Shown piece by piece: positions 19,192 to 20,839 of a stretch of DNA of 64,000 bases. Within the stretch, counting starts at the first letter, position 1. Each line of letters opens with the position of its first letter. The translations under genes were made by a program, and so were the position numbers. The DNA is taken from positions 1 to 64,000 of the forward strand of contig JAURER010000007.1 of the NCBI GenBank assembly GCA_030827315.1, given 5' to 3'. The notes below the pieces were generated by a model. The model did not search any database, had not been told where the DNA came from, and saw nothing but the letters and a program-made list of their open reading frames with translations. Origin of the DNA: Gemmatimonadota bacterium. Lineage in GTDB: Bacteria > Gemmatimonadota > Gemmatimonadetes > Longimicrobiales > Gaopeijiaceae.

Positions 19192-19310
19192 GGGGTGTCG
19201 ATCCTGAAGGGGCGTTCGGAGTCCGGCGCGACCACACGGCCGAGCCGATCAGCTCCGAAATCTACCCCGGCGGACCCGGACTTGAAGTGGAGCCCGCCAT
19301 GTCCGCGACG

Positions 19311-20768
19311 TCATCCCCCGCGGGCCAGCATCCCCCGCATGCGCTGCACCTCCATCGCCTGTTCCGCGTCGATGTGTCGAAGCAGCCATGCGGCCTCGGG
19401 CGTCGTGCCGACCGACCCCACCCGATCGAGAATGACCCGCGCCATGACGATCGCGCCCTCGTGGTGCTCCACCATGGACTCGAGGAACAGTCGGTCGAAC
19501 TCCGGGCCGCTCGCGTCCCGAAGACGGCGCATACGTGCGTCCGAAATCATCCCCGGTATGTCATGGATCCCATCGTGAGTTACGAGGAGGTCGCCACCGA
19601 TGTCCGAATGACCCGACTCAAGCCACCGTCTCATCAAATGGATCTCTTCGGTCTGGGCAATCTGCATTCGCACCGCCATCTCGATCACTTCGGGTCGGTC
19701 TGAGCGATCAGGTACGAGCGCGACCAGATCGAGTGCCTGGCGATGGTGGCGTATCATGCTCACCAGCGCAGTCTGATCGACTTTCACCGAGGCCGCCGTC
19801 CCCGCGATGGCGACCGGAAACGCCAAAGGGGTCAGGAGGGCCGCCGCGGGAGTACCGCGATAGCAGCCGACGGTGTAGGGATATTCGATCGTCGCGTGGT
19901 AGTGGTAACCAAGGGGGGCGTGCTCGTGCCCGTGGCACTCGTCGAGATCGGCGTTGGACAGTTCCCGCCCCCCAACCCCCGAGTATCCGTAAAGACCGAA
20001 ACCGTCGCGTATGTAACCGACGAGCCCGGAATGGCCGTCAGGCATCGGCGCCGCATCGAGGCGCTCCGGGAGATAGTGGTAGTGATAGTCTGTCATGGCA
20101 GGATGCCCACCGAACTCGTCCACAATCTCATGGGCGACGGCATCATCGCCTCGTCCATCCATCGCGTTGTAGAGGATCACGCCGTTGAGCGTGACCCCGA
20201 TTGCTCCGAGCGACGTGCAAGCAGGAATGGCGCCCACCGTCGGATTCATGGGAAGATTGAACGTGTAACTCCCGGGGGATGGCACGCCGGGGTTTCTGTC
20301 GATGGCAGACAGGTCCGGGTACTGCGTCATGGGCCAGTCGCCGATCCTCAGGTCCACCGGGAGGTTGTTGATCGTGATGGTCCGAACGCTACCGGACTCC
20401 GACACCCGAATGGTCCCCGGTTCCGGCGCGAACGCTCCCCGAGGCAGGAAAGGCTTCGACAGCAGATTCCACGTTCCAGCGGCCCAGTCGATCCAGGTGA
20501 TCCGGTCCGCCTGACTCCCTGGCGCATTCGGGTTGCCCGGCGAACACGCGTAAAGCTTGCCGCGTGCCGGACTCGTCGTCGTGACATGGTCATCACCGAG
20601 ACGAAGAGATCTGCAGTCGGGTCCGAACGTGTCCGCGCACAGATCCGGCGTGATGAAATATCTGGAGAGGTCCGGGTCGCCGCCGACCTGAACCTCACTC
20701 ACCGCCCCATCACACGCGAGTGAAAAAACGGACAGGGCCAGAAGCAACTCGACGCTACGCCGTTTCAT
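19311..20768 (-). CDS. lipoprotein fusing a YHYH domain to a DUF305 domain
   Basis: A 485-residue exported protein with a lipobox near the N-terminus (SVFSLACDG). The first two thirds form a YHYH domain, with the motif itself in MTDYHYHYLPERL and a second histidine cluster in ECHGHEHAPLGYHYHATIEY. From about residue 325 a DUF305 four-helix domain follows, with MIRHHRQALDLV and MVEHHEGAIVMA as the paired His-His motifs. Both domains are His-rich and often linked to metal handling, but neither has a settled reaction. ATG 20768 was chosen over the adjacent GTG at 20771. Confidence 0.85.
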   Translation of the reverse strand: MKRRSVELLLALSVFSLACDGAVSEVQVGGDPDLSRYFITPDLCADTFGPDCRSLRLGDDHVTTTSPARGKLYACSPGNPNAPGSQADRITWIDWAAGTWNLLSKPFLPRGAFAPEPGTIRVSESGSVRTITINNLPVDLRIGDWPMTQYPDLSAIDRNPGVPSPGSYTFNLPMNPTVGAIPACTSLGAIGVTLNGVILYNAMDGRGDDAVAHEIVDEFGGHPAMTDYHYHYLPERLDAAPMPDGHSGLVGYIRDGFGLYGYSGVGGRELSNADLDECHGHEHAPLGYHYHATIEYPYTVGCYRGTPAAALLTPLAFPVAIAGTAASVKVDQTALVSMIRHHRQALDLVALVPDRSDRPEVIEMAVRMQIAQTEEIHLMRRWLESGHSDIGGDLLVTHDGIHDIPGMISDARMRRLRDASGPEFDRLFLESMVEHHEGAIVMARVILDRVGSVGTTPEAAWLLRHIDAEQAMEVQRMRGMLARGG

Positions 20769-20839
20769 CACAAGTTCTCGAACGATTGAGACTCCCTTCC
20801 CCCAGCACCCTCGACGTCGCGACCATCGTCGACGTTAGG

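Follow-up and report, generated by a model that had tools for sequence, protein, structure and literature searches.

The window analyzed here, a stretch of 64,000 nucleotides from a Gemmatimonadota bacterium, encodes a 485-aa protein that joins a YHYH domain to a C-terminal DUF305 domain. This fusion is real and, so far, restricted to one genus. We propose that it is an envelope-anchored copper-handling lipoprotein, a reading to which we assign a probability of about 0.45. This role has the best support of those considered, since each half of the protein points to copper on evidence of its own: YHYH is joined here to a CopM-type domain and, elsewhere, shares a cross-phylum gene order with a MORN-like gene and SCO1.

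Architecture of the fusion gene

The preliminary description of this DNA had placed two His-rich domains in one exported chain, and this reading held. The open reading frame starts with a signal sequence, and HMM searches recovered both domains. The YHYH match (PF14240) scored 55.8 bits against a cutoff of 25 (E = 7e-15) and fell into two stretches, the best of which covers residues 170 to 264 (19977 to 20261). The DUF305 match (PF03713) scored 117.2 bits against a cutoff of 27 (E = 9e-34) and is nearly full length, spanning profile positions 5 to 151 of 151. Because both matches exceed the curated cutoffs, chance is a poor explanation of the pairing, and an assembly artefact is unlikely because eight genomes of the genus share this architecture. 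The features are as follows:

19311 to 20768, reverse strand: YHYH-DUF305 fusion gene, 485-aa reading frame with an ATG at 20768 and no internal stop (or possibly starting from the GTG at 20771)
20712 to 20768, reverse strand: signal sequence with lipobox-like Cys19 (residues 1 to 19), SLAC19 at its end
20274 to 20687, reverse strand: N-terminal module (residues 28 to 165), without a Pfam match and common to the stand-alone orthologs
19839 to 20273, reverse strand: YHYH domain core (residues 166 to 310), Pfam PF14240
20076 to 20105, reverse strand: His site 1, GHP...YHYH (H222, H229, and H231), invariant in 17 bacterial sequences and also found in phage YHYH
19896 to 19934, reverse strand: His site 2, HGH...YHYH (H279, H281, H289, and H291), in 15 of 18 long-type sequences
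19779 to 19838, reverse strand: variable linker (residues 311 to 330), 27% mean pairwise identity
19326 to 19766, reverse strand: DUF305 domain (residues 335 to 481), Pfam PF03713, predicted CopM-like helical bundle
19743 to 19748, reverse strand: first HH motif (H341-H342), invariant in six fusions
19461 to 19466, reverse strand: second HH motif (H435-H436), invariant in six fusions

By the lipobox rule, SLAC19 is a putative lipobox. Its A18-C19 pair is invariant across six aligned fusions, and a lipid would serve as the membrane anchor. A profile search of the window genome found the fusion as the single YHYH gene, together with two further DUF305 genes.

Distribution and origin of the fusion

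Searching for the domain pair with the window protein as query against 121 genomes of its family, we found fused copies in 8 of the 14 genomes of the window's genus (G000, G082, G153, G229, G256, G277, G415, and G418). All eight reach query residue 481 or beyond. The eighth copy (G418, locus L098) is cut by a contig edge, and Pfam confirmed both of its domains; its DUF305 match, like that of the window copy, runs to profile position 151. The relatives carrying the fusion are Gemmatimonadota MAGs. Among 395 genomes drawn from the phylum, 51 carry YHYH and 6 of these have it fused; in the other 45, no DUF305 match lies in the same reading frame as YHYH.

Outside the genus, we found eleven orthologs without DUF305, seven in genomes from other genera of the family and four in genomes from another family. 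They show 60 to 68% identity and terminate at CYRGTP(I/R). The G420 ortholog (L069) is broken into two frames. Because the orthologs outside the genus end without DUF305, this domain is most simply the added part; it was probably gained at the C terminus, and the fusion would thus be derived. Stop-codon readthrough into DUF305 was rejected for the stand-alone orthologs, as three-frame translation past the end of YHYH revealed no such domain, and extensions of the matches to these orthologs, which contain in-frame stops, are read as chance.

A scan of genome contigs for fusions elsewhere relied on just two N-terminal peptide patterns and may have passed over more distant ones. No plasmid or phage record matched at least 80% of the fusion query in one place, and viral scans with A3 YHYH (a subfamily described below) and with the DUF305 part alone returned no relatives. 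One locus labeled Rhodospirillaceae (L099) holds a close N-terminal copy that meets a contig edge before DUF305; because it shares the gene order of the fusion loci, it may be misbinned. In a five-gene tree, six fusion genomes formed one clade (100/100), with the window placed apart at weak support. Seven fused DUF305 sequences likewise formed one group (100/100) in the DUF305 tree, on a long branch.

A gap of 119 bases separates the fusion gene from fumC, which lies downstream, and a dehydrogenase gene (SDRa) lies ahead of the fusion; all three are on the same strand. The fusion gene adjoins fumC in all seven loci with enough sequence (window, L094 to L098, and L103). SDRa was found ahead of it in the window, L093, L094, L096, and L099 but not in L095, L097, or L103. 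The neighbors tested comprised the dehydrogenase, fumC, two pyridine-nucleotide-disulphide oxidoreductases, and pterin-type genes, and no copper or metal gene was found beside the fusion gene in the loci compared. Six genomes of the genus have SDRa and fumC adjacent without the fusion gene; in two of them, a different exported-looking gene fills the slot, the one in L108 encoding a PD40 beta-propeller. Across the genus, this slot from SDRa to fumC (19192 to 20839 in the window; L104 and L108) varies in content, being nearly empty or occupied by the fusion or by other exported-looking genes. None of the fusion-locus neighbors appeared around the stand-alone orthologs in the stretches read.

YHYH subfamilies and their gene context

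By their best tblastn hits, 61 YHYH genes from 51 genomes fell into four subfamilies; one further gene without a locus (G172, contig C5) was left out of the 61. The A3 subfamily, which is short and lipoprotein-like, has a co-oriented SCO1/SenC gene beside 21 of 26 genes, with midpoints 0.9 to 1.5 kb apart (L348, L350, L352 to L357, L359 to L365, L368 to L370, and L385 to L387, all Gemmatimonadota). Two of these SCO1 genes were checked with Pfam, and one of the five A3 loci without SCO1 sits at a contig end. SCO1 was found beside none of the 18 long-type genes, which include the fusions, and none of the 9 PEBP-type or 8 L007-type genes (0 of 35 together), misses that weigh less for the L007-type, with flanks of about 0.8 to 1.5 kb per side, and for several other loci because their flanks are short.

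At least 11 of the 21 SCO1-linked A3 loci have a MORN-like gene separating YHYH from SCO1 (seven by clustering and four by tblastn). In 7 of 22 clustered A3 loci, there is a sigma-factor-type gene close by, with one representative checked by Pfam. The order YHYH, MORN, SCO1 was also found in Bacteroidota, on plasmid pPP1 of Persicobacter psychrovividus (L374, 5965 to 7938), where its neighbors are DUF3347, a regulator of the AraC type, and a CusB-type gene whose product carries a heavy-metal-binding domain (HMBD). By tblastn, no SCO1 was found at the plasmid YHYH loci of Bradyrhizobium, Tsukamurella, Limimaricola, and Loktanella, and copper context was missing at those of Bradyrhizobium and Tsukamurella. 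The Loktanella locus (L375, 3562 to 6984) shows the gene row YHYH, PEBP, PEBP, YHYH, and PEBP (YbhB-like)-YHYH fusions occur in Gemmatimonadota at L048 and L051.

In 3 of the 45 genomes with unfused YHYH (G251, G263, and G366), a YHYH gene and a separate DUF305 gene are no more than about 6 kb apart. G263 has YHYH, SCO1, and DUF305 on one strand, with 1.4 kb from YHYH to DUF305 and with a metal-sensing repressor, a HAD/ATPase-type frame, and CopC nearby. In G251, the two genes are 4 kb apart, accompanied by SCO1, nosZ, and NosL; here the YHYH-SCO1 pair adjoins nosZ and a NosL-containing gene (L348, 9953 to 15252). A general link between nosZ and YHYH was rejected, since nosZ occurs in 132 and YHYH in 51 of the 395 genomes and the two coincide in 13, against about 17 expected. 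The link also fails in the window's genus, with nosZ in none of its 10 genomes in that draw.

The preliminary description had stated that YHYH and DUF305 proteins are each often found near metal-handling genes. This stands for A3 YHYH and, on the passages available from PMC4335983, for cyanobacterial DUF305 proteins, as most CopM-like genes there lie near copper genes; it does not extend to the fusion gene or the long-type subfamily. Within the window's genus, SCO1 scored above the cutoff in two of the eight fusion genomes (one match partial) versus five of the six non-fusion genomes, several of these genomes being incomplete.

Histidine sites of the YHYH domain

Conservation of the histidines, a check that the preliminary description had suggested, was found in both halves. 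Besides the HH motifs of DUF305, the residues D217, H222, H229, H231, and D255 do not vary among 17 diverse bacterial YHYH sequences, nor do Y228-H231 and D255-G256 (the DG motif). Site 1 (H...YHYH...DG) is common to bacteria and phages. For site 2, the three long-type sequences without HGH...YHYH (L371, L379, and L382) are distant members with 34 to 36% identity. GH...YHYH is present in all 21 SCO1-linked A3 sequences; among the SCO1-negative ones, it occurs in G015 but not in G074, G133, or G236, and G118 is unreadable. HGH...YHYH was seen in none of the 8 readable PEBP-type, 8 L007-type, and 17 phage sequences. The second motif reads YAYF in 14 of the 17 phage sequences, and its missing reading in the other three may reflect the limits of the interval read. 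Two Rhodobacterales YHYH proteins also have site 2, with no SCO1 found beside them; thus, the link between site 2 and SCO1 is a correlation and no rule.

The occurrence of site 1 and D255 in both phage sequences and the fusion protein agrees with a different explanation, in which YHYH is a Zn2+-dependent hydrolase or a glycan- or wall-binding domain, as proposed for phage tails, DUF305 merely dimerizes or buffers metal, and copper is peripheral. Passages of a jumbo-phage survey predict three His and an Asp as the Zn site of a tail-associated hydrolase (PMC7824862), and those of a pelagimyophage paper place YHYH, by prediction only, among receptor- and carbohydrate-binding domains linked to host recognition (PMC7029224). 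Two viral contigs (L157 and L318) also encode YHYH joined to a subtilase domain. However, the A3 subfamily of bacteria is strongly linked to SCO1, and the YHYH/GHP histidines are lost in some phage sequences, such as the viral-contig homolog L167; because of such sequences, an enzymatic role of YHYH is not general. We regard this explanation as the most serious competitor, although an unlikely one.

Structure prediction of the YHYH part gave pLDDT values below 50 over most of the domain from 12 sequences, and a mean pLDDT of 54.8 with a pTM of 0.57 from 43 sequences, 31 of them from phages. Fold searches with this low-confidence model returned nothing usable, and the best PDB sequence match (E = 0.16) was unconvincing.

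Fold and divergence of the DUF305 domain

The DUF305 part models like CopM. Its ten-residue blocks have pLDDT values of 73 to 95, except for residues 381 to 400 and 451 to 460 (34 to 56). The model of residues 326 to 484 matched 3bt5 with a Z score of 19.9 (rmsd 2.0, 145 aligned), 2qf9 with 19.1, and CopM in its Cu(I), Cu(II), Ag, and apo forms with 16.7 to 16.9 (16.9 for 5ffc), followed by ferritin-like proteins at 15.3 or less. The profile of the CopM family metallochaperone (NF049983) scored 56.8 bits, under the NCBIfam cutoff of 90. According to the excerpts available, CopM binds Cu(I) and Cu(II) in vitro (PMC4335983) and protects Synechocystis (PMC4335983 and PMC12292863).

Mean pairwise identity among six fusions is 78% in the N-terminal module, 87% in YHYH, 27% in the linker, and 58% in DUF305; the stand-alone DUF305 orthologs of the same six genomes are 70 to 98% identical. 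Judged by these values, the fused DUF305 diverges fast. In seven fusions (L098 not among them), the loop between the two DUF305 halves contains 3 to 5 Met and His residues (mean 3.6). The count is 4 to 14 (mean 8.4) in a comparison set of 44 further DUF305 domains; these are picked hits and no random sample, and the groups are related. By this count, the loop is eroded, with most of its Met and His lost.

The 58% identity against 87% for YHYH, the eroded loop, and the long branch would suit a passenger under loose constraint: a C-terminal module that recurs in exported proteins of this family, was fused, now drifts, and carries little functional weight. DUF305 also lies C-terminal to RCC1 repeats (L074 and L078) and a serine beta-lactamase-type domain (L076). 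Yet six fusions all keep the HH motifs, Met338, Met432, Met442, and further core residues unchanged, and the domain reaches its full profile end; we consider the passenger reading improbable.

The RCC1-DUF305 proteins belong to one genus, in which L077, L081, and L131 look like the Pfam-confirmed L074 and L078; in the DUF305 tree, L079 and L080 carry RCC1 labels that are uncertain. L076 comes from another genome. Long reading frames at other DUF305 hits were rejected as fusions, since most look like an unrelated frame before a signal peptide; Pfam confirms L074, L078, and L076. L118 combines DUF305 with a weak overlapping DUF4142 match and nothing else.

A proposed role in envelope copper handling

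In the copper-handling role that we favor, YHYH would be the conserved working domain, coordinating metal at site 1 (with D217 and D255) and at site 2. The C-terminal DUF305 bundle, probably gained in the genus, would be a built-in CopM-like copper holder or a dimerizer, and could supply metal to YHYH or take metal from it. That the metal is copper, and that it passes between the two domains, we infer. Both may act on the same ligand, as the preliminary description suggested, a view to be set beside the loss of most Met and His from the DUF305 loop.

For copper, we counted the CopM-like DUF305 model, the subthreshold NF049983 match, the invariant HH motifs, the A3-SCO1 linkage, the CusB-type context in Persicobacter, the G263 and G251 gene rows, and the sharing of site 2 between long-type and SCO1-linked YHYH. 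Against it, we counted the lack of copper neighbors in the loci compared, the absence of SCO1 beside the 18 long-type genes, the eroded loop and fast divergence of DUF305, the presence of above-cutoff SCO1 matches in only two of eight fusion genomes, the low-confidence YHYH model, site 2 in Rhodobacterales YHYH beside which no SCO1 was found, the Bradyrhizobium and Tsukamurella loci without copper context, and the published prediction of a Zn site in phage YHYH.

A broader proposal would be that two-site bacterial YHYH proteins are unrecognized envelope copper proteins working with SCO1-type chaperones and that, in this genus, the fused CopM-like domain replaces the separate partner, giving a self-contained copper carrier. 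In most fusion genomes, no full SCO1 gene was found; we offer the proposal as a speculation that is more probably wrong than right.

The range of YHYH spans bacteria, phages, and diatoms, and in diatoms it is described as abundant (PMC11992049), yet the literature found gives predicted functions only. Our search returned no paper with both YHYH and DUF305 and no YHYH paper title tying this domain to SCO1; within the literature searched, neither the fusion nor the YHYH-SCO1 order turned up in print. PMC4520260 was set aside as irrelevant, its available passages concerning DUF3050.

Comparison with known systems

The PEBP (PF01161)-YHYH fusions of the same phylum are also exported-looking YHYH fusions, but their PEBP domain is N-terminal and none of the eight readable sequences has HGH...YHYH at site 2. 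The clusters of YHYH, MORN-like gene, and SCO1 in Gemmatimonadota and Persicobacter share with the fusion a lipoprotein-like YHYH with both His sites; they differ in belonging to another YHYH subfamily (25 to 35% identity in the aligned bacterial sequences), and the fusion has no SCO1 neighbor. CopM of Synechocystis (PDB 5fej and 5ffa to 5ffe) resembles the fused DUF305 in its DUF305 fold, two HH motifs, and export. However, CopM is a free periplasmic or extracellular protein from a copper-induced operon, whereas the fused domain is tethered to YHYH, has a loop poor in Met and His, and is encoded by a gene beside which no copper genes were found. With the YHYH family (PF14240) as a whole, the fusion protein shares an above-cutoff match, the H...YHYH site 1, and the DG motif; it is distinguished as a long subtype with an N-terminal module, a second His site, and the extra DUF305 domain.
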